Of a DNA stretch of 21,637 nucleotides, positions 1,862-21,178 are shown piece by piece. A program made the translations under genes and the position numbers. This DNA comes from a virus. The notes beneath the pieces are model-generated. The model was not told the origin of the DNA, did not search any database, and worked only from the letters and a program-made list of their open reading frames with translations. Location of the stretch: the IMG/VR virus record IMGVR_UViG_3300027861_002514, positions 1 to 21,637 of that record, one strand, 5' to 3'. Each line of letters opens with the position of its first letter. Position 1 is the first letter of the stretch.

Positions 1862-4800
1862 TTATGAAATTACGAGCCCGCCAGAGTTCGCTCGTCGCTT
1901 GAAGAATGTGAGCATTTCAGAAAGAGTCTCAGACGAAGCCTGCTGGTACTTCACAGACTCGGCGTTAGCTTTCTCAGCTTGAACATCCGAATTGGTATTC
2001 ACATTGCTGGTAAGCGACTCCAAAACTTGCAATGCATCACTGGTCGCTTCTTCGCTACCGCTTGAATTAAAGAAATCGACTGCAGCCTGTTGTTCTGCAT
2101 GAGTGCCAACCGTGTTAATGTCTATCACATCCGCAATTGCGGCTTCGTCGATGGCAGTGTTGCTAGCGATCATGTTAGAATCAGCAGCACCATCCAAACC
2201 AGCAAATGCCTGGATCCCGTCATTGATCTGCTGAAGCAAGTCTCTCTGCTCTTTCTGCAGGTCAAACTCTTTGTCGTCGCCCTTCAAGGAGTTCTGGATT
2301 GTACTGTGTAGAGACTCGATCCCCACAGTACTAGTGTCAGCTTGCAGGTCTCTCTTGTCTGCGTCGCCAATCTTTCTCTTTGTTAACTCGAAGAACGGAA
2401 TCAGACTATCGTCATCCTGGTCTGCTGAACGCCTAACTTGATCGATCAGGTCGTCAAGACGTTTCTTCTCTCGGTCGTTAGCCTCTTCCTGAGTTTCCCC
2501 GAGTTTTCGCTCCACTTTGCCGCTGAAGGACATGATCGAATCGCTGATTCTTCGCATCGTCTCGGACATGTTCTCTTTGTCGAACTGAGCGTCCGGACCA
2601 AGAACTTTTTCCCTGTCTTCCTTCCGTTGCTCGAACGTGTCGATCCGGCTTGCGAACGAACCTGAGATTCCGGAGCGATCCGGCTTAATCTTCATGAACT
2701 CAGATTCGAACTCGTCCATCTTACTGAGGACCATGTCGTAGACTGCATCGAGGGGTCCGCCACCTGCTCCTCTGGATGCGGCAATCTCCGCCCGGGCACG
2801 ATCATTGGCCTGCTTCTGGTTCTCGCCAAACTCCCTGCTTGCTTTTCCAGAGTGCCCTTCAGCCAACGCCCCAGCAGACCGAATAGACTGCTCGACAAGA
2901 CGCTTATGCATCTCAGGAGTGAGAACGCCTGCGTTGCTCAACATCTGAAGTTTGTCGGCGAGGGATGACCTAACTCCCTGCAGAGATGTAGAGAACTTCG
3001 TAAGCCCAGACGGAAGCTTTAAGGCTTCATGAGTGATAGTCTTGAATGCATTCAAGAGTTCATTTAGAATTGCCTTCTCATTACTAAGTGCTGCCTGTGC
3101 CGCCTCGTTCTCAGTGCCAATCGTATTATCAACCCGATCCTGGGCGACGTCAATTCGATCTCTTGCCGCCGAGATATCAGAAGTTAAAGACGTAGCTTGT
3201 GCCGCTCCCTGGTCAAAAGACTTGAACTTCATCAATGAGACAGTCTCATTGACGTAGTTGCCTATTGAGATCTGAAGATTCTTAAATAGCTTAGCCTGTC
3301 TAGCTTTTTCGTTGTCGAGTTCATTTTGTGCCTTTTCGATTTCATTCCTAGCGTCCTGCACGAGTTTTGCGTCGGTACCTAAAGCCTCAGCAAGATTCAG
3401 CTGCCCCTCGGTCGTGCTAAGGTCAGCATTTACGATCATCGACTTAATTCTCTCGTATTCCCTCTCTATTTCCCTGTGAGAGCCTCGTCTTTCTTCGATA
3501 TTAGTCCCCCGGAGCCCGGTTCCTTGCCTGGCCAGTTCCCTCATTGCGGAACCTTCTCTGGCGGACCCGGAATCCTCTTCTCTCTTCTCTTTAACAATTC
3601 GCTTGATGTCGAAGGTGAATTGAGTCTTTGCTGTAGACCATATTTTGCCAAACACATCTACCATGGCATCGCCTCGCTCCCTCCAGAAGCCTGCCTCTGG
3701 GGAAAACTCAGATGCCTCAAAAACAGACCTGGCAAGAGCCTCTCCTTTTCTGCTCGCATCAGTGGATTCAGCTGCTGAGTCCCCAGCGTTTGAGATGCTT
3801 TTTCTGATGCTGCCTATTCGTGCACGGAAGTCAGATTGGCCAGCCCCCAAGATCTCCTCAGACACCTCTCGAGACATCTTCCTAGCCCTTGCCATCCTGT
3901 CTATTGAAGAGGCTAGCTTTTCCATTTTCTCTTCAGTTGTCTCAGCTTCAATGCCAAGACTTTTGACTGCATCTGCCAGTCCTATCATAGCAATGGTGCC
4001 GAGGGCGCCAATAAGTGCTCCGCCTGTAGTTCCAGTAGCTGCCGCAAGAGAGGCCATGTTATTCGCTGACGCCCGCAAAGCGCCGCTTAGGCCGGTCTGT
4101 CCGATAACCTGCACAAAGTCTTGAACTCCATAAGAGGCTTGCTGCATCATGAAGTTGAAGCGACGGGACGTCTGAGCTCCCTCATGAAGCCTGCCATTTA
4201 CTCCGTTCTGTGCATTCTTGAGCTTGTTTAGCGATGCGAATTCTATTTCTAACTGGGCGTTTAGTGACTTGAGTTCATTTCTCTCTCTCTTAGTAAGCTC
4301 AATTCCTTTAGCCTCTTTGATAGACAGCCCTGATCGGCTTGCCGTCAGCGATCTGATCTTTTCTTCTTTTCTTGACATCTCCTTGCTGAGCTTGAACTCA
4401 GCATCCTTCAGGGTCACGGCACTGCTAAGCAGCTTCTGTTCAGTCGTGAGTCTCTCTTTCTCTGCGGCAGAGAGGGTTTTGTCATTCTTGATCAGTTTGT
4501 CTATCTCGATCGACCGAGTCCTCAAGGCGTCCAGCTCAGCCTGCTGAGTAACTTCCCCCTGCCCTAGTCCTTCGTTTCTTGACCTGAAGTCCGCATCAAA
4601 GAGCGTGTCCTCTGCGTTGGAAATACCTTGCTTGCCGGCCTGGTTGCGAGCCACGTCAGATCTGAATTGCTCTTTTGTTATGTCACCAGCAGACAGCCTC
4701 TTAGCCGCCAGTCGCATTGCGTCGTCAATCTTGGCCTCTCGCACGCCAGTAGCGGCCTTGCGAAGTGCTGCGGCAATTTCCTGTGCAGCAAGGCTGATCT

Positions 4801-7109: not shown

Positions 7110-7144
7110 AAAAAAGCGGAGCACGATTTAACGTACTCCGCTTT
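7110..7144 (-). terminator. Rho-independent terminator after tail tube gene
   Basis: Read leftward, a 13-bp stem (7144-7132 with 7125-7113, one T-G wobble) closes a 6-base loop and is followed by a run of six T (7115-7110, partly within the stem). It stands 18 bases after the tail tube stop. This is a textbook intrinsic terminator. It would set high tube expression apart from the downstream chaperone and tape measure genes. Confidence 0.85.
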
Positions 7145-7162
7145 GGTTTGCGTTCGCTCTGG

Positions 7163-7549
7163 TTATGTAGTCAGAGTTCCGGTCCAAGCTCCGTCAGTCA
7201 TGAATGGCACAGAGACTCGCTCTACAGTACCCTCACGATTGATGGTAGTTTGAATCTGACCGATCCGAGCATTGCCAGTAGCGGTATCGCCGCCGGTAGC
7301 TGCGTAGAAGGTCAATGCGACCAGTTCGCCAGATTCCGCGATGCTCGTAAACAGAGCCGCGTCATCCATGACCAGGTTCAGCGTACCCGAGCCTCGCTTG
7401 GCGGTAGCGACCGTGCTACTCGCACCGGCACCGTCCACACAGAAGAACTCTTCGTTCGGTGAACCGTAGGTCAGGTCACAGTCTGTAAGGCAGAGGATTG
7501 TGCAACTGCCTAAAGTAACGTATCCGTTTAATCCTGAAACAGCTGCCAT
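7163..7549 (-). CDS. Putative major tail tube protein (128 aa)
   Basis: The protein is beta-rich, Gly/Thr-rich and small. It has the pattern seen in siphovirus tube subunits: NGYVTLGS at the N-terminus, then GSGTLNLVMDD, ESGELVALTFYAA, GNARIGQIQTTINREG and a final VSVPFMTDGAW strand. It is followed at once by a strong terminator, fitting a highly made structural protein, and precedes the chaperone and tape measure genes. The ATG at 7549 is preferred over 7555 because the AAAGGAA ribosome site is 8 bases from it and too close to the other. Family assignment is by pattern and synteny. Confidence 0.6.
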   Translation of the reverse strand: MAAVSGLNGYVTLGSCTILCLTDCDLTYGSPNEEFFCVDGAGASSTVATAKRGSGTLNLVMDDAALFTSIAESGELVALTFYAATGGDTATGNARIGQIQTTINREGTVERVSVPFMTDGAWTGTLTT

Positions 7550-7561
7550 TTGCATATTCCT

Positions 7562-8008
7562 TTATGCTGGGACACTATTGTCTTTCTGCCACTCTACCTC
7601 GAACTCGACAGAGCCAAGGAATACATTTTCATCGACAGGCCCAGATTCTCTTCCTGAGTACTGGACTCTGATTACGCTTCCGTTAGAAACAGTGAGCGGA
7701 TCGGTTCCCGCTCGCTCTGAGTTATCATATGTTGACTCTATCAAGTCCAGTGCAGTTTCCAGAGCGGCGGGGTCAGAATGCCACACCTCAAAAGTCACCA
7801 TGTGTTCTCGCAGAGTCTTGCCTACCGTGTGCTCAACAGGAATGTCGCCCTCGACCATGAACTGAGCTCGTGGCAGGTTTTTCGCAGCAATATCTTCTGG
7901 TGTTGAGCCGTACGCGTTTGCACGTGGATGAGTACGAAAAATGGCACAAATAGACGTGTCCAGACTCGCGTCATTCCATCGGTTTAGTATGGCAGCGGTA
8001 ACGCTCAT
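7562..8008 (-). CDS. Putative tail terminator/completion protein (148 aa)
   Basis: Located between the gp10-like gene and the tail tube gene, the usual slot for the protein that caps the tail tube and joins it to the head. The composition fits this group: an N-terminal helix (ILNRWNDASLD), a substrate-like middle with LPRAQFMV, the strand pair REHMVTFEVW, a helix DPAALETALDLIEST, and a final beta strand SVEFEVEWQ. Upstream is an AAGG ribosome site at slightly long spacing. Assignment to the DUF3168/gpU-like group is tentative. Confidence 0.5.
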   Translation of the reverse strand: MSVTAAILNRWNDASLDTSICAIFRTHPRANAYGSTPEDIAAKNLPRAQFMVEGDIPVEHTVGKTLREHMVTFEVWHSDPAALETALDLIESTYDNSERAGTDPLTVSNGSVIRVQYSGRESGPVDENVFLGSVEFEVEWQKDNSVPA

Positions 8009-15710: not shown

Positions 15711-16938
15711 GCATGGATCGAATTTCATCTGGCGTTGCTGCTCCAGCCTTCACAAGCATCTCGGCAATTGCGATAAGCTGAGCTTCTCGGTCCACTGAAG
15801 AAGGTCCAATCTTGACGACCAGACTCTTATCATCTGCGAACTCATTAGCCAGATTCTGCGTGAAGTGCTGTGAAAACTGCTTGAGGATCGGGTCGATCGT
15901 CATCTTGCAGAACTGAATCAGGGCACCTTCCATGTTACTCTTGTTGGAGTCGGCGACCATCCCGAGAATTGCTTTTGGGACACCGTGTGTCGCCAGTGTA
16001 ATCTCCAGCGTCTTGTCCAGGGAGCCAGTGTAATCCAGTTCCTTCTGTGAGCTGTTCTGGAAAGAAGACTCCAGCTTCAGGCCAGAATGTACAATCATCG
16101 GCCGTCCGGAATGTTCACTCATGGAGTGCTGAGCCGCGACATTTGCCCACAGCTGGTGAACCTGGTGCGGCTGAAGCCTCTGGTCGGTCGAGAAGACCAT
16201 CCCTGGGGGAGCGAAGTTCTTGAACGTGTAGTACAGCCGCTCGTACATCTGATTCTCAAGCTCGATAGTCACAGCCGCCGCGCTAATAGACGGCTTGCCG
16301 TAGAATCGACCGTGCCCCTGCCAATCAAGGCTTGGATTCTTGATGTCGATCATCGAGTCTCGGTGAACATAGAAGTTGCCGGGCCCGGAACTGACTTCGT
16401 ACCCGCCAATCAAGTGCTCAGGATCAGGGATCGCCTTGCACCACTGAGAAGGCATCGGCCAGAGCTGTTTCGTAACGCCGAAGCCATTCTTGGCCTTGTA
16501 GATCATCGAGTTTCCAGTCGTCAGTCTCCAGCCTACGGCGTAAAACCATAGATCCCAGAGAGTGTCGATCGGATTGATGTCTTCGAATAGCTCCTGAAGC
16601 GGATGAGTATATTTCACCCTCTCAAGCTTGACGCCTGATTTACCTTCTGTTCGTCGCTGAACGACCACATCCTGCATCGCCACCATCTTAGCAATCGCAG
16701 AGATCGCCATGTAGGTAGAATTCTTGTACTGCTTGACGTAGGAGTTGCGATCTTCGGTCCAGTGAGCTGCAACTCGACCATCGAACTGGCTATTGACAGC
16801 CATCTGAGGGAATTGCTGCTCAACTGGAACCTGAGATATATTTCCGCCGTTTCCTGTCCCAACAACTGAGATTGTGTTGGCGAGAAGCGGGTCTCTACCT
16901 GCCTGGTCGATAATTGACGTCAGACTCGTTATCGGCAT
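15517..16938 (-). CDS. HK97-family portal protein
   Basis: A 473-residue portal, the ring through which DNA enters the head and onto which the neck is built. Recognisable segments in order are STYMAISAIAKMVAMQDVVV, HPLQELFEDINP, WYF-type aromatic helices (LWDLWFYAVGWRLTTGNSMI), LWPMPSQWCK, then GRFYGKPSISAA and NFAPPGMVFSTDQ. A later LDYTGSLDKTLEITLATHGV segment precedes a C-terminal acidic Ser/Glu/Pro tail. These fit the HK97/SPP1-class portal family. The start overlaps the end of the coiled-coil gene by 44 bases, with AAGGAAG upstream. The 3' end overlaps the opposite-strand gene by 194 bases. Confidence 0.92.
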   Translation of the reverse strand: MPITSLTSIIDQAGRDPLLANTISVVGTGNGGNISQVPVEQQFPQMAVNSQFDGRVAAHWTEDRNSYVKQYKNSTYMAISAIAKMVAMQDVVVQRRTEGKSGVKLERVKYTHPLQELFEDINPIDTLWDLWFYAVGWRLTTGNSMIYKAKNGFGVTKQLWPMPSQWCKAIPDPEHLIGGYEVSSGPGNFYVHRDSMIDIKNPSLDWQGHGRFYGKPSISAAAVTIELENQMYERLYYTFKNFAPPGMVFSTDQRLQPHQVHQLWANVAAQHSMSEHSGRPMIVHSGLKLESSFQNSSQKELDYTGSLDKTLEITLATHGVPKAILGMVADSNKSNMEGALIQFCKMTIDPILKQFSQHFTQNLANEFADDKSLVVKIGPSSVDREAQLIAIAEMLVKAGAATPDEIRSMLMDWDPMNSPHGSKAVMVSGFQSIDQETGLPDGAEQSESAPEPKNTPASEETVEVGRAVLGGRS

Positions 16939-17314
16939 TTGAATCTTCCTTGATTCCGGTGTGAGTTCTGGCCATCTCGACCTGAGCAGCCGCTGTTATG
17001 TGTTCAAGCTTCCGGAGCTCAATATCACGATGGATCATTGATTGCTGCTGAGCAACCACCTGATCTGTCAGCATGATTTGATTGTCCTTGGCCTCAACGA
17101 CAAGTTCGTACTGCTCGCATTCGACTTTCAGAGTAGCAATCTCTCTCTTGAGCTGGTTGACCACATCTTCTGATCTCTCAGACTCTCGATCAGCTTTAAG
17201 GGCACGATCAGAAAGAGAACGACACTCTGTGCATTTCTTGCTGTAGCGGTTCTGGCTCGCCTTAACCTCTGCAGATATAAAGCCAGCCAGCCAACTTCTA
17301 AAGTAAGTAATCAT
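16895..17314 (-). CDS. Small coiled-coil protein, first gene of the structural operon (139 aa)
   Basis: Leader gene of the leftward operon, with a GGGAAGGAA ribosome site. The N-terminus (MITYFRSWLAGFISAEV) is a short hydrophobic, possibly membrane-associating helix. A CTEC pair follows near residue 29. Residues ~35-110 are a long charged helix with heptad-like spacing (VVNQLKREIATLKVECEQYE) and the C-terminus is polar. The function is unknown. A holin or spanin role is conceivable from the N-terminal helix but unsupported. Position beside the portal suggests a head or packaging accessory. Confidence 0.65.
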   Translation of the reverse strand: MITYFRSWLAGFISAEVKASQNRYSKKCTECRSLSDRALKADRESERSEDVVNQLKREIATLKVECEQYELVVEAKDNQIMLTDQVVAQQQSMIHRDIELRKLEHITAAAQVEMARTHTGIKEDSNADNESDVNYRPGR

Positions 17315-17342
17315 TCGGTTCCTTCCCGGGAATACGGGGTGA

Positions 17343-17379
17343 TGATTACGTTAACCCTGTGCTCGCGTCAACTTGACTT
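17343..17379. promoter_or_regulatory. Back-to-back divergent promoter region
   Basis: The inverted repeat GTCAA-C-TTGAC (17368-17378) places two -35 boxes head to head. On the - strand, TTGACG (17372-17367) is followed by 18 bases and AATCAT (17348-17343), 28 bases before the first structural ATG. On the + strand, TTGACT (17374-17379) faces the ParB-like gene, but no convincing -10 follows at 16-18 bases. A TCACGTGA palindrome lies downstream (17415-17422). The region separates the leftward structural operon from the rightward genes. Confidence 0.45.
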
Positions 17380-17449
17380 CCCTTGGAACGGCAATTGTGT
17401 TTAGCATGAAAAATTCACGTGACACACATCCTTGGGAAGGGAATTCCAA

Positions 17450-18400
17450 ATGTCAGCTGTAATTGAAGCAACGGAAAACAAGTCAGACCAAATCAAATGG
17501 GTCACTCCTCAACTCCTTAAGCATCACCCGATCAACGAGAAGATCTACGGAATTGAGCCAGTCGACAAGAACCTGATGGATTCGATCAGGACTGGCGGGA
17601 TCATTGAAGAGATTCAGGTAACGCCTGAGTATGTCATCATATCGGGGCACCGCCGAACAATCGCCGCGATTGAACTGGAACTAGAGTCAGTGCCGGTTCG
17701 TCTTCGATACGATCTCGACACTCCGGAGAAAGTCGAGTGGGCCCTCATTGAGGCAAACCGAACCCAGCGGGACAAGACGCTGGAGCAGAAGATTCGCGAA
17801 ATCATGACCATCACTGAGAAGGTCAAGAAGTTTCGTATGGAAGTAAACGCTCGATACGAGACCAAGGACCTTGGAGAGATCGCCAAACTGGAAGAGATCG
17901 ACGCCGAGCAGGTCAATACCTCAAACGCTGACGAGATGCAGGAATTCGTACGGGACAACTTCAACCCGGAGAAGAACAAGAAGAATTCCGCCCTGCTAAT
18001 TGCCCTGAATCACTACAATATCTCAGAACTTCACTACAAAAAAGCCAGAAAGGCGATGCTGGCCATTGACGAGTTCGAATCTGCGGGTAAGATCACCGAA
18101 GCAAAGGAAGTCAGACATGCTTTGAATTCCTACGGCTTCAAGAGGTTTGACGACGTTGTCAATCGCCTGCGAGGCGTAAAGACAGTCAAGAAGTCTGAGC
18201 GTCCTTCGGCTCTAGCTAAGAAATCTATCGAAAGCTTTGAGCAGGCAATTGAGTGCCTGCCAGAAGGAAACAGCCACATCGCCCGTGCCGGAATGGCACT
18301 GGGAATGATGAAGGCGGTCAGGGATGAGATTATTCGACTGCACGTTTCCAAAGAAGTTGAACCCAAGACTGAAAAGGTTGTGACCGATGACGATTCGTAA
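17450..18400 (+). CDS. ParB/Srx-like N-terminal domain protein (316 aa)
   Basis: The start at 17450 has a strong GGGAAGGGA ribosome site 8 bases upstream. Residues ~15-95 match the ParB N-terminal (ParB/sulfiredoxin-fold) layout: HPINEKIYGIEPVDKNLMDS, then GIIEEIQVTPEYVIISGHRR, with GHRR as the family's conserved box, and VPVRLRYDLDTPE. After it comes a charged helical region (about 105-280) without a recognised HTH. Phage ParB-like proteins are used as regulators, nucleases or partition factors; no ParA is nearby, so partition is not supported. The catalytic or CTP-binding state cannot be read here. It overlaps the next gene by 14 bases. Confidence 0.75.
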   Translation: MSAVIEATENKSDQIKWVTPQLLKHHPINEKIYGIEPVDKNLMDSIRTGGIIEEIQVTPEYVIISGHRRTIAAIELELESVPVRLRYDLDTPEKVEWALIEANRTQRDKTLEQKIREIMTITEKVKKFRMEVNARYETKDLGEIAKLEEIDAEQVNTSNADEMQEFVRDNFNPEKNKKNSALLIALNHYNISELHYKKARKAMLAIDEFESAGKITEAKEVRHALNSYGFKRFDDVVNRLRGVKTVKKSERPSALAKKSIESFEQAIECLPEGNSHIARAGMALGMMKAVRDEIIRLHVSKEVEPKTEKVVTDDDS

Positions 18401-18932
18401 AATGGCGACCCGAGACATTCCTGTTGTATCTGCGATCGACTCTGAGCTGTACAAGAACGCAATCACAGAGACGGAACTACTGCAAGAGATTACCGACAAG
18501 AATAACGGCACTAAGAATCCGCTGACTGCACCGATTGTAGCAGTTAACGACCAGGGGGAAGTGGTCGGGTACACAAGATTCGATCGACGAGTGGGTACCA
18601 CTGACTCACTTGCTATCTTCAGAATCTCCACTGCTCCCGGGCAGGGGCGGCAGGGAGTCGCTACTGAAATGGTAATGCATGTTCGATCAAAGCTTAAGGA
18701 GATGAAGTGCAACTCGATCTTCGCAAAGGTTCATCAGGATCGAATCCCTGCCATGAACCTGTTCGCGAAGTGCGGCTTCAACTGCACCGGAACTGAGGAT
18801 GTCTCGCAAGGCGACGAATCCTTCGAAGCGTACGACTTCGAATACTCGGTCCCGCTGGACGACCGCAACCCACGGCACATTGCAAGTATCGCGAAAGCCT
18901 GTCGTGAAGAACGAGCAGGGAAAGAGGAATAG
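18387..18932 (+). CDS. GNAT-family N-acetyltransferase (181 aa)
   Basis: The acetyl-CoA-binding loop QGRQGVA lies at residues 86-92 after the strand LAIFRIST, followed by a helix (TEMVMHVRSKLKE). Next come SIFAKVHQDRIPAMNLFAKCGF (given in two parts: residues 110-120 and 121-131), which form the C-terminal GNAT strand and helix. The N-terminal half carries the strand VAVNDQGEVVGYTRF. The substrate is unknown; RimI-like protein or small-molecule targets are both possible. The gene overlaps the ParB-like gene, so the two are probably co-translated. The tRNA-like element begins 9 bases after its stop. Confidence 0.85.
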   Translation: MTIRKMATRDIPVVSAIDSELYKNAITETELLQEITDKNNGTKNPLTAPIVAVNDQGEVVGYTRFDRRVGTTDSLAIFRISTAPGQGRQGVATEMVMHVRSKLKEMKCNSIFAKVHQDRIPAMNLFAKCGFNCTGTEDVSQGDESFEAYDFEYSVPLDDRNPRHIASIAKACREERAGKEE

Positions 18933-18941
18933 AACCTCATA

Positions 18942-19013
18942 GGAAGAGATGACAGCTGGAGCGTCACCGCTATCGTAAGACGGCATTCGCAGGTTCGATT
19001 CCTGCCTCTTCCT
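18942..19013 (+). tRNA. tRNA-like element, probable tRNA-Thr (anticodon CGT), atypical
   Basis: A perfect 7-bp acceptor stem (GGAAGAG 18942-18948 with CTCTTCC 19006-19012) and a perfect T-arm (GCAGG-TTCGATT-CCTGC, 18989-19005) are clear. The D-arm (GAC/GTC around AGCTGGAGC) is short or shifted. The anticodon arm CCGCT-ATCGTAA-GACGG (18967-18983) has a C/A mismatch and a T-G pair. The loop reads T33-CGT-AA, giving anticodon CGT (Thr). Position 8 is A instead of U, and no CCA is encoded. The length is 72 nt to the discriminator. It could be functional, degenerate, or a tRNA mimic. It is followed by a strong terminator and co-directional with the GNAT gene. Confidence 0.6.
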
Positions 19014-19014
19014 C

Positions 19015-19036
19015 TCTCCGGGGTAGTATCCGGAGA
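19015..19036 (+). other. Short hairpin just 3' of the tRNA-like element
   Basis: TCTCCGG (19015-19021) pairs with CCGGAGA (19030-19036) around an 8-base loop. No T-run follows, so it is not a terminator. It may serve as a processing or stability signal for the tRNA-like transcript. Confidence 0.4.
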
Positions 19037-19094
19037 AATCCAAGAGTTCGTGTTAAGTCAGTTTGTGCCTTAAGATTGAACCCTTGGTTGCCAT

Positions 19095-19142
19095 AAAGTC
19101 TTCGCCTGACAGGACACCTTAGGGTGCAGGCGAAGACTTTTT
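19095..19142 (+). terminator. Strong rho-independent terminator
   Basis: A perfect 14-bp stem (19095-19108 with 19127-19140) continues inside to a 4-bp CACC/GGTG stem with a TTAG loop, and ends in TTTTT (19138-19142). It would end the ParB-like/GNAT/tRNA-like transcript. Reading leftward there is only a short T-run, so it acts mainly rightward. Confidence 0.9.
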
Positions 19143-19163
19143 ACTTATCGAAGAAGGAAGAAA

Positions 19164-19586
19164 ATGACCAATAGATCATTCAAGAGCAAACTCGTTGGTG
19201 ACAAAGTCTTTGTCGTGCACCAGAACGATCGGTACCGAAGCAGTAAGGGGCTTACTCCTAAAACAGAGACACTCTCCATCTGTAAGATCGGCAGGAAATA
19301 CCTCTACCTCGAAGGGTGGCAGAATCAAAAGTTCTTCAAAGATAATGGAGTCAGTGCGCATCACGAAGACAGCAACGCCAGATCTAATGGAGTGGGATTT
19401 GATGTTTACCACTCCGAGGACGATTACAAACAGGAGCAACACGAAAAGCTAGAACTCTCTCGCCTTGAAAGGCGGATGATATCAAGTAGATGGAACAGAA
19501 GCCTCACCAGGCTGTCACCAGATACAGTTAATGAGATTCACAAGATCTTGGATACGGAAGGCGTCGACAGAAACATCGAAGATTGA
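19164..19586 (+). CDS. Unrecognised small protein (140 aa)
   Basis: Starts after the terminator with an AAGGAAG ribosome site. The N-terminal half looks like a small beta-barrel-type domain: DKVFVVHQNDRYRSS, then KTETLSICKIGRKYLYLEGW. The C-terminal half is helical and charged (QEQHEKLELSRLERRMISSR). Phages often encode short proteins of this style of unknown function. Its TGA stop lies inside a TTGACT promoter-like box. No family recognised. Confidence 0.65.
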   Translation: MTNRSFKSKLVGDKVFVVHQNDRYRSSKGLTPKTETLSICKIGRKYLYLEGWQNQKFFKDNGVSAHHEDSNARSNGVGFDVYHSEDDYKQEQHEKLELSRLERRMISSRWNRSLTRLSPDTVNEIHKILDTEGVDRNIED

Positions 19587-19612
19587 CTTCCTGATGTTCA
19601 AGATTGTACAGT
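19583..19612 (+). promoter_or_regulatory. Promoter candidate for the membrane protein/receiver/exonuclease cluster
   Basis: TTGACT (19583-19588), which contains the TGA stop of the preceding gene, is followed after 18 bases by TACAGT (19607-19612, 4/6 match to the -10 consensus). The next gene starts about 85 bases downstream. The leader also holds a CTGCCC/GGGCAG inverted repeat. No other convincing promoter was seen in this gap. Confidence 0.4.
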
Positions 19613-19695
19613 AACTGCCCTATTCGTGTCGCATGTCCGGGCAGGCACCTGCGAAGTAACTAATTGCAAGGGAAAGTCAACAAAAAGGGGCAGGG

Positions 19696-20055
19696 ATGCC
19701 TGACGCGACAGAGATTCTAAATACCGCTGCGAACAGAGGCGATGGAACCTATCTCGCTATCGCAACAATGGTGCTGTGCGGTCTGGTAATGTCTGGCATG
19801 GGGTACATGCAGCTGAAGCTCTGGAGGGAACTCCGAGGTGACATCCAGAGCGACCGAAAAAGCACACGCAAGGCGATTGAGGCTATATCAATAACCAACC
19901 TCGGGATACAGCAGACGTTAGGGGTGATTTCGCTGACTACGACAAGGGAAGGGCCAACTACCCCTGACGATTGCCGAGAATACCACAAGCGAGCTGAAGC
20001 AGTCTTTAAGATACAAGAAGAACAGAGAGCATTTCTTGAAAAGGTACTCTCGTGA
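19696..20055 (+). CDS. Small single-helix membrane protein (119 aa)
   Basis: Residues ~18-38 form one hydrophobic helix (TYLAIATMVLCGLVMSGMGY) after a short polar N-terminus. The remaining ~80 residues are polar and helical, with Arg/Lys just after the helix, which favours N-out/C-in topology. A coiled-coil-like C-terminus (EYHKRAEAVFKIQEEQRAFL) could bind a partner. Its stop overlaps the GTG start of the receiver gene, so the two are translationally coupled. A holin-like role is possible by size, but no endolysin lies next to it. A membrane anchor or sensor partner for the receiver is an alternative. Confidence 0.6.
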   Translation: MPDATEILNTAANRGDGTYLAIATMVLCGLVMSGMGYMQLKLWRELRGDIQSDRKSTRKAIEAISITNLGIQQTLGVISLTTTREGPTTPDDCREYHKRAEAVFKIQEEQRAFLEKVLS

Positions 20056-20396
20056 AGAGAGTAGTCGTCCTTGATGACGACGCCCTTCAAGTGTTAATGA
20101 TAGAAGGGCTCCTCGATAGCAGGGGAATCCAATGCAGGGACTGGTCCAAGAATAAAGATCTTAGCGACACTCGGGCGGTTATCTGCGACTGGCTAATGCC
20201 AGAAAGCTGGACCAAGTATCGCTACGACCTGATAGAGAAGGCGACAGAGATAGGTATTCCTGTCGCGATATACACAGTCGGCGGAACTACTCGCGAAATC
20301 CTAAGTGAGACATATCCAGGGGTCGACCTGGATGTCATCCAGAAGTCACAAGACAGAGGCAGCCTAGTCAAGTGGCTCACTAAAAACGGACTCTGA
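20052..20396 (+). CDS. Stand-alone response-regulator receiver-like protein (114 aa)
   Basis: GTG start overlapping the upstream stop, with AAAAGG upstream. All landmark residues of a CheY-type receiver appear in order: an acidic cluster D8-D10 after the first strand (RVVVLDDD), the phosphoacceptor D46 in AVICDWLMP, T75 in AIYTVGG, and K98 in DVIQKSQD. Spacings are close to those of CheY, with a shorter first half. There is no output domain. A phosphorylation-controlled switch or a decoy for a host kinase is plausible. It overlaps the membrane protein gene upstream and lies 2 bases before the exonuclease gene, so it is likely cotranscribed with both. Confidence 0.75.
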   Translation: MKRVVVLDDDALQVLMIEGLLDSRGIQCRDWSKNKDLSDTRAVICDWLMPESWTKYRYDLIEKATEIGIPVAIYTVGGTTREILSETYPGVDLDVIQKSQDRGSLVKWLTKNGL

Positions 20397-20398
20397 AA

Positions 20399-21178
20399 AT
20401 GCTATCAAACAGCGATGCCTCTAATCTAAGTGGCAAAGTCGTAGTCGTGGACCTGTCGTACCTGATTCACAGGTCATTCAAAGCTGGCGGGTTACGGCCG
20501 ACAGTCTACCCACACCCGGACGCAGCGTCCGCCGTGGTCCCGATGACGATCCAGCGACTGAAGAGCACGCTTCGGCCGAGTGAGATTCACTTCGCCATCG
20601 AATCAGGACACAAGCATCGGGACGAGATACTCCCAAGCTACAAAACTCGTGATCCGAAGCCGCCAGAGCTGATCAGTGAATACGAAGCGATCGTGAGTGG
20701 ACTCTTGGAGAACGGAGAGTCCGTAGTGTTTGCGACCGACTTCGAAGCCGATGACGTCATGGCCACGATGGCCTATGAGCATGGCAGGAACTGCATACTC
20801 GTGACCGCAGACAAAGACATGCATCAGCTCTGTAATATCTGCCATCTCTATGATCCCTATAAGAAGGTTGAAGTTACCTCGCAGGACGTGATCGACAAAT
20901 GGGGAGTCAATCCTCGGCAACTTGGGGACCTGCTGGCTTTAATGGGAGACGATGCCGATTCGATCCCTGGTGTACCCAAGATTGGCCCTAAGACAGCAGC
21001 TACGCTGATCAAGGAGTACTACTGCCTTGATGACATCTTGGATGCGGCCGACGAAATGTCCGAGAAAACCGGAAAAGTTATGTGGAAATCGCTTGTGGAA
21101 AATAAGCACGACGCTATCATGAGCCGTCGACTGGTGCGACTGGTCACTGATGTGAAAATCGAATCACTGGAGAAGTGA
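20399..21178 (+). CDS. 5'-3' exonuclease / flap endonuclease (259 aa)
   Basis: Acts on nicks and flaps during DNA replication, repair or recombination. Family landmarks are in order: metal ligand D18 in VVVDLSYLIHRSF, R74 and YKTRDPKPPE (81-90), EADD at 116-119, TADKD at 136-140, and GDDADSIPGVPKIGPKTA at 183-200, the helix-3-turn-helix DNA-binding segment with its last metal aspartates. The size is typical for phage versions (T5/T7-like exonucleases and the N-domain of Pol I). No DNA polymerase domain is attached. It ends in a TGATG overlap with the next small ORF. Confidence 0.9.
   Translation: MLSNSDASNLSGKVVVVDLSYLIHRSFKAGGLRPTVYPHPDAASAVVPMTIQRLKSTLRPSEIHFAIESGHKHRDEILPSYKTRDPKPPELISEYEAIVSGLLENGESVVFATDFEADDVMATMAYEHGRNCILVTADKDMHQLCNICHLYDPYKKVEVTSQDVIDKWGVNPRQLGDLLALMGDDADSIPGVPKIGPKTAATLIKEYYCLDDILDAADEMSEKTGKVMWKSLVENKHDAIMSRRLVRLVTDVKIESLEK

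Follow-up and report, generated by a model that had tools for sequence, protein, structure and literature searches.

We describe a gene for a one-helix membrane protein (P0002) and an overlapping gene for a stand-alone receiver (P0001) in a viral contig, and propose that the two form a co-translated accessory cassette in which the receiver would work as a membrane-tethered switch acting through its membrane partner. We give this reading a probability a little under one half (about 0.45). The window, meaning the whole stretch of DNA that was analysed, comprises 21,637 bases and corresponds to a virus record in IMG/VR.

Organization of the gene pair in the viral contig

The minus strand of the window carries structural genes, including a portal gene (E 3e-41 to phrog_12). 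The plus strand carries, in this order, a ParB-like gene, a GNAT gene, a structured RNA-like element, a ProQ_C-like gene, the genes of P0002 and P0001, a 5'-3' exonuclease gene and two small ORFs (Table 1). The first-pass annotation of this DNA had described a one-helix membrane protein gene that overlaps a receiver gene through a GTGA junction and precedes a replication exonuclease. Both ORFs were recovered exactly where it had placed them, and the next gene does encode a 5'-3' exonuclease. Shine-Dalgarno-like motifs are present ahead of the P0002 start (AAGGGG, 19685-19690) and of the P0001 start (AAAGG, 20040-20044), and the GTGA overlap is likely to couple translation of the two genes. Codon usage did not discriminate the reading frame for either of them. 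The P0001 and exonuclease genes are separated by 2 nt and are presumably co-transcribed.

Table 1. Position of the gene pair and of neighbouring features in the window.
Feature	Position	Strand	Evidence or remark
Variable slot (ProQ_C-like gene, P0002, P0001)	19148..20407		Specific to the window, between DNA common to L002
Phage_ProQ_C_like protein, 140 aa, neighbour within the slot	19164..19586	+	PF24203 (E 3e-13); phrog_3032
P0002, one-helix membrane protein, 119 aa	19696..20055	+	ATG start; ORF and hydrophobic segment
GTGA overlap, P0001 start on P0002 stop	20052..20055	+	Sequence; compare the ATGA overlaps (4 nt) between paired genes of Alteromonas phages
P0001, candidate stand-alone divergent receiver, 114 aa	20052..20396	+	GTG start; HMM scores, sub-threshold Pfam Response_reg, alignments
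5'-3' exonuclease, 259 aa, downstream neighbour	20399..21178	+	PF02739 (E 5e-20), PF01367 (E 2e-25); phrog_107; homologues in L002, L004 and L005

Classification of P0001 as a divergent receiver

Alignment with eight phage receivers placed D8, D9, D46, T75 and K98 of P0001 on the conserved catalytic columns. The receiver residues listed in the first-pass annotation (D8-D10, D46, T75 and K98) were thus confirmed for the five catalytic ones, D10 being the third acidic residue of a DDD run and variable among phage receivers. In a four-sequence alignment with Escherichia coli CheY, D8, D9, D46 and T75 remained in register and K109 was displaced by a gap; in a three-sequence alignment, K98 of P0001 fell on the receiver Lys. 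At this conserved position P0001 carries Lys-Ser, as do the receivers of phages PB15 and XX1924, most receivers having Lys-Pro.

Profile searches gave scores above those of the controls. A single Paraglaciecola genome supplied 47 receiver segments for a first receiver HMM, which gave P0001 a score of 17.5 bits over residues 3-106. The maximum was 11.7 among 20,000 composition-preserving shuffles and 10.4 among 2,547 frames taken from different phage loci. An HMM built from the eight phage receivers gave 18.8 for P0001 and 12.6 for the best shuffle. The Pfam Response_reg family (PF00072) covers P0001 end to end with 12.6 bits (E 0.16), a score that does not reach the curated cut-off of 30.2, and P0001 was for this reason filed as a divergent receiver-like protein and not as a Pfam member. 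Its best phmmer match in the PDB was CheY1 of Helicobacter pylori (E 0.018), and searches for relatives in IMG/VR, GTDB genomes and cultured phages returned none beyond ordinary CheY-like proteins. The receiver spans all 114 residues, with no C-terminal output domain. On these comparisons, P0001 is taken as a genuine, divergent and catalytically complete receiver. The possibility of a PhoB-type transcriptional regulator was also considered for P0001 and rejected, given that the receiver fills the whole protein.

Modelling with AlphaFold2 from the single P0001 sequence was poor (pLDDT 51), and the Foldseek matches of this model were disregarded. A model from a three-row alignment (P0001 and two remote receivers) reached a pLDDT of 76, had a response regulator as its best PDB match, had the catalytic residues lying at strand ends or close to them and is compatible with a (beta-alpha)5 fold, all of which is partly circular with receivers in the input.

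Motifs of the DxD, T and K type can resemble motifs I-III of HAD proteins, and the single-sequence model gave weak HAD matches at low confidence. That P0001 is a HAD-type phosphatase instead of a receiver is nonetheless scarcely credible and was rejected, since Pfam returned no HAD family match, the DWLMP motif around D46 suits receivers and not HAD proteins, and the receiver HMM score points the same way.

Predicted topology of the membrane protein P0002

A single segment of P0002, residues 20-38, is strongly hydrophobic (mean Kyte-Doolittle value 1.79). Positive charge is higher after this segment, which predicts an N-out/C-in orientation, with the C-terminal region of about 80 aa predicted to be cytoplasmic. 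No family was found for P0002 in Pfam, PHROG, NCBIfam or PADLOC, and none of the phage hemolysin/XhlA-like, holin or spanin profiles of Pfam, PHROGs and NCBIfam matched it. Relatives were not found in IMG/VR or in phages. A defence-system reading was considered and rejected.

The pair occupies a variable slot in related phages

Three related contigs (L002, L004 and L005) share with the window a portal protein (64-86% identity) and the exonuclease (48-76% identity). Neither P0001 nor P0002 is present in any of these three sister phages. Blastn comparison of the window with L002 showed homology at 16800-19147 (77%) and again from 20408 (74%), and none in between. At the same slot, L002 (5156-5998) encodes a 280-aa protein in which a coil precedes the single membrane helix and a long coil follows it; this protein has no family match and is unrelated to P0002. 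L004 carries a cytidylyltransferase gene and another ORF there, and in L005 the GNAT gene directly abuts the exonuclease gene. Because the pair is absent from the sister phages, two of which have other content in the same slot, the sequence comparison identifies it as an accessory, exchangeable block. The expectation that this exact pair would be conserved was not borne out: no homologue of it was found, and even the closest sister, L002, lacks it.

These results bear on two alternative explanations. The pair could regulate phage replication via the adjoining exonuclease, with which it is nearly contiguous and presumably shares a transcript. This is highly improbable: the exonuclease is kept in sister phages without the pair, no sign of a joint role with this enzyme was seen, and the Alteromonas phage pairs described below do not adjoin nucleases. 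P0001 could also have been taken over from a host and survive as an orphan or decaying receiver that is now functionless, or its likeness to receivers could be due to chance. The lack of homologues, the absence from the sisters, the strong divergence, the score below the Pfam cut-off and the undiscriminating codon usage would fit such an origin. We consider it quite improbable in view of the catalytic residues, all in register, of scores exceeding those of 20,000 shuffles, and of an intact frame that overlaps the upstream gene.

Two other features were observed in this region. A strongly folded RNA-like element lies between the GNAT gene and the variable slot (18938-19145, plus strand; 4895-5103 in L002). 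Its parts are a tRNA-like cloverleaf, two further hairpins and, just ahead of a T run, a terminator-type hairpin of 14 bp. The cloverleaf scores 27.5 bits with the Rfam tRNA model, just under the cut-off of 29, and ARAGORN reports no tRNA. The z-score is -5.65 for the window copy and -4.52 for the L002 copy, which share the same fold and show compensatory changes in the terminator stem, and a 20-nt pattern of its core matches only the sister contig in IMG/VR. Downstream from the exonuclease gene, L002 encodes (7116-7574) a protein with a CAP (cysteine-rich secretory protein) domain (E 1e-8).

Similar gene pairs in Alteromonas phages

A Foldseek search against viral models led to the receiver of Alteromonas phage PT11-V22 (V22), which was then followed up. 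Stand-alone receivers were found in V22, PT15-A5, R9Y1-3, R8W, H4/4, PT11-V19, PB15 and XX1924. In eight Alteromonas phages from several unrelated lineages (Autographiviridae, Schitoviridae, a myovirus and others), the receiver gene is located directly behind a gene for a small membrane-anchored coiled-coil protein. The receivers form three groups (R9Y, R8W and H4/4; V22 and A5; PB15 and XX1924) and a degenerate outlier (V19), with one receiver per phage genome. Matches to receivers in unannotated or apparently bacterial records of the phage collection (Listeria, Acinetobacter and faecal contigs), which made up most of the matches, were left uncounted.

The protein encoded directly upstream has in each case 93-125 aa and a single hydrophobic segment, which is a weak one in PT15-A5 and in V22; the remainder is mostly charged and coiled-coil-like. 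From the charge bias, the soluble part of these partners would be cytoplasmic, with the anchor at the N-terminus or, in PB15 and XX1924, at the C-terminus. Annotation of the H4/4 partner, gp43, reads “containing one membrane domain”, and the PB15 partner belongs to phrog_937 (“hemolysin”). All six records of the R8W/R9Y partner family adjoin a receiver gene, and the family was found nowhere else. Five pairs (R9Y1, R8W, H4/4, PB15 and XX1924) show 4-nt ATGA overlaps. In PB15, the overlap appears once the receiver is taken to begin at 3992, probably its true start; a protein begun at the annotated position, 4013, would lack the first strand.

The PT11-V19 pair is an isolated two-gene unit that lies between tail genes and is oriented against them. 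Its receiver (3998-4450) has lost both the phospho-acceptor Asp and the conserved Lys, so not every lineage requires phosphorylation.

Small membrane genes amount to about 12-14% of V22 genes in the first 50 kb by the same crude measure that was applied to the partners. Four independent pairings would accordingly be rare by chance, roughly a few in ten thousand, an estimate weakened by the clustering of membrane genes in lysis cassettes.

P0001 is related to the Alteromonas receivers at the superfamily level only (best pairwise E 0.007, to PB15, in the eight-sequence set), and no significant sequence link was detected between P0002 and the Alteromonas partners. The window pair would thus be akin to the Alteromonas cassettes by architecture and not by sequence homology, and the arrangement could be convergent. 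Of the suggestion that the gene pair might occur in other phages, the layout was confirmed as recurrent; this exact pair was not found conserved. A different arrangement was seen in Stenotrophomonas phage vB_SmaS_Bhz63, where an apparently whole two-component system, a PhoP-like regulator gene overlapping a sensor-kinase-like gene, lies beside NinB (2489-4035).

Association with lysis genes and search for a cognate kinase

With the exception of V19, the Alteromonas pairs are mostly located among holin, endolysin or spanin genes. PHROG neighbours of the pair are a spanin gene in A5 and V22, an endolysin gene in R9Y1, and endolysin and holin genes that follow the pair in PB15; in R8W and H4/4, a class II holin gene lies upstream. 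Lysis cassettes often contain membrane genes, so that a membrane-protein neighbour is likelier there by chance.

This location raises the possibility that the pair is a regulator of lysis timing, in which phosphorylation by the host alters the action of the partner on holin or spanin and hastens or delays lysis according to the condition of the host. In addition to these neighbours, the match of the PB15 partner to a phage hemolysin PHROG is consistent with it, and there is a precedent in a host-encoded PhoB-like regulator that controls a lysis cassette (PMC10101115). For the pair as a whole we regard this as unlikely: the V19 pair lies between tail genes, the window pair was not seen beside lysis genes (the contig ends 1.2 kb downstream), and none were recognised by eye in the inspected parts of the L002 and L004 contigs.

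No HisKA domain, and no HATPase_c domain above cut-off, was found in the window record, the sister records or the Alteromonas phages, the IMG/VR records being possibly fragments. The view of P0001 as a phage receiver without output domain, coupled to a membrane protein and without detectable kinase, is therefore retained. Since no phage kinase was detected, with the reservation that the window record is a fragment, the phosphoryl group would come from the host or from a small donor.

A receiver of this kind could alternatively serve as a phosphoryl sink that shuts off a host response by drawing phosphoryl groups away from a host kinase or phosphotransfer protein, the membrane gene being an unrelated neighbour. 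Conservation of the catalytic residues, the missing output domain and the lack of a detected kinase would agree with a sink, and single-domain response regulators have been discussed as phosphate sinks in cells (PMC3868531, PMC5964349). We nevertheless judge it distinctly unlikely. A small membrane gene is found upstream in every group examined, the R8W/R9Y partner family occurs only with a receiver, and the V19 receiver has no phospho-acceptor to drain into.

Comparison with published receivers and known systems

Some of these receivers have been reported singly. PMC7289586 includes the V22 receiver among class II auxiliary genes. For A5, PMC10579305 notes a receiver in common with V22 that belongs to a host-recognition module, the genes on either side having no known function. 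The R8W receiver was interpreted as a PhoB that responds to phosphate limitation (PMC8228385), a reading that does not fit, because its predicted receiver of 153 aa leaves no room for a DNA-binding output domain. In the literature covered, which mostly excludes subscription journals, we did not find the pair described as a module; receivers appear only singly, as CheY-like or PhoB auxiliary genes. The proposal of the first-pass annotation that this is a candidate for an undescribed phage system may hence hold for the pair, but does not hold for the receiver by itself.

Like the window receiver, the CheY-like proteins V22 gp30 and A5 gp11, both published under class II auxiliary genes, are stand-alone and encoded right after a small, probably one-helix protein. 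P0001 differs from them in being shorter, in having Lys-Ser for Lys-Pro, in showing no significant pairwise similarity and in not being seen beside lysis or tail-fibre genes. R8W gp48 (“PhoB”, Autographiviridae) and its homologue H4/4 gp44 are also receivers only, with a 4-nt ATGA overlap with a one-membrane-domain protein gene; unlike P0001, they give a strong Pfam receiver match (77 bits) and have a holin gene close by. The regulators of PB15 and XX1924 share with P0001 the Lys-Ser and the overlap of a stand-alone receiver gene with a membrane-anchored (in their case coiled-coil) protein gene, whereas their partner is tail-anchored and matches a phage hemolysin PHROG, with endolysin and holin genes following in PB15.

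Cellular single-domain regulators of the CheY, Spo0F, DivK and MrrA type likewise lack an output domain and act by contact or phosphotransfer; P0001, in contrast, is phage-encoded, has no recognisable cognate kinase and is coupled to a phage membrane protein. The cREC domain of jumbo phages (PMC7824862), another divergent phage receiver-like domain, was considered and set aside, as it is linked to NAD+/ADP-ribose enzymes, and the window neighbours are instead a ProQ_C-like gene and an exonuclease gene.

Proposed mechanism and biological meaning

In the membrane-tethered switch that we favour, P0002 would have its anchor in the inner membrane and its soluble part on the cytoplasmic side, as its charge and hydropathy suggest. 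P0001, in which alignment shows that the acidic pocket, Thr75, Lys98 and Asp46 as phospho-acceptor are all retained, may be phosphorylated by host histidine kinases, phosphotransfer proteins or acetyl phosphate. Because it has no output domain, P0001 would exert its effect by touching another protein, for which P0002 is the simplest candidate, and the cassette would in this way couple the signalling state of the host to a membrane event. In the Alteromonas phages this event would likely be lysis or its timing, in view of the holin, endolysin and spanin genes that mostly surround these pairs.

A broader generalization, which we hold to be doubtful, is that such pairs make up a recurrent and unrecognised phage module, assembled several times across separate phage lineages, in which a receiver read by host kinases controls a membrane-anchored phage protein and tunes lysis or another membrane event to the two-component signalling of the host.

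The published PhoB-type, DNA-binding reading of one such gene, in R8W, is corrected here. How phages sense the physiology of the cell before lysis is a largely open question, and the results suggest that phages with such pairs read internal signals of their host. A receiver without kinase or output domain, paired with a membrane protein among the lysis genes of cultured phages, would make this question directly testable.
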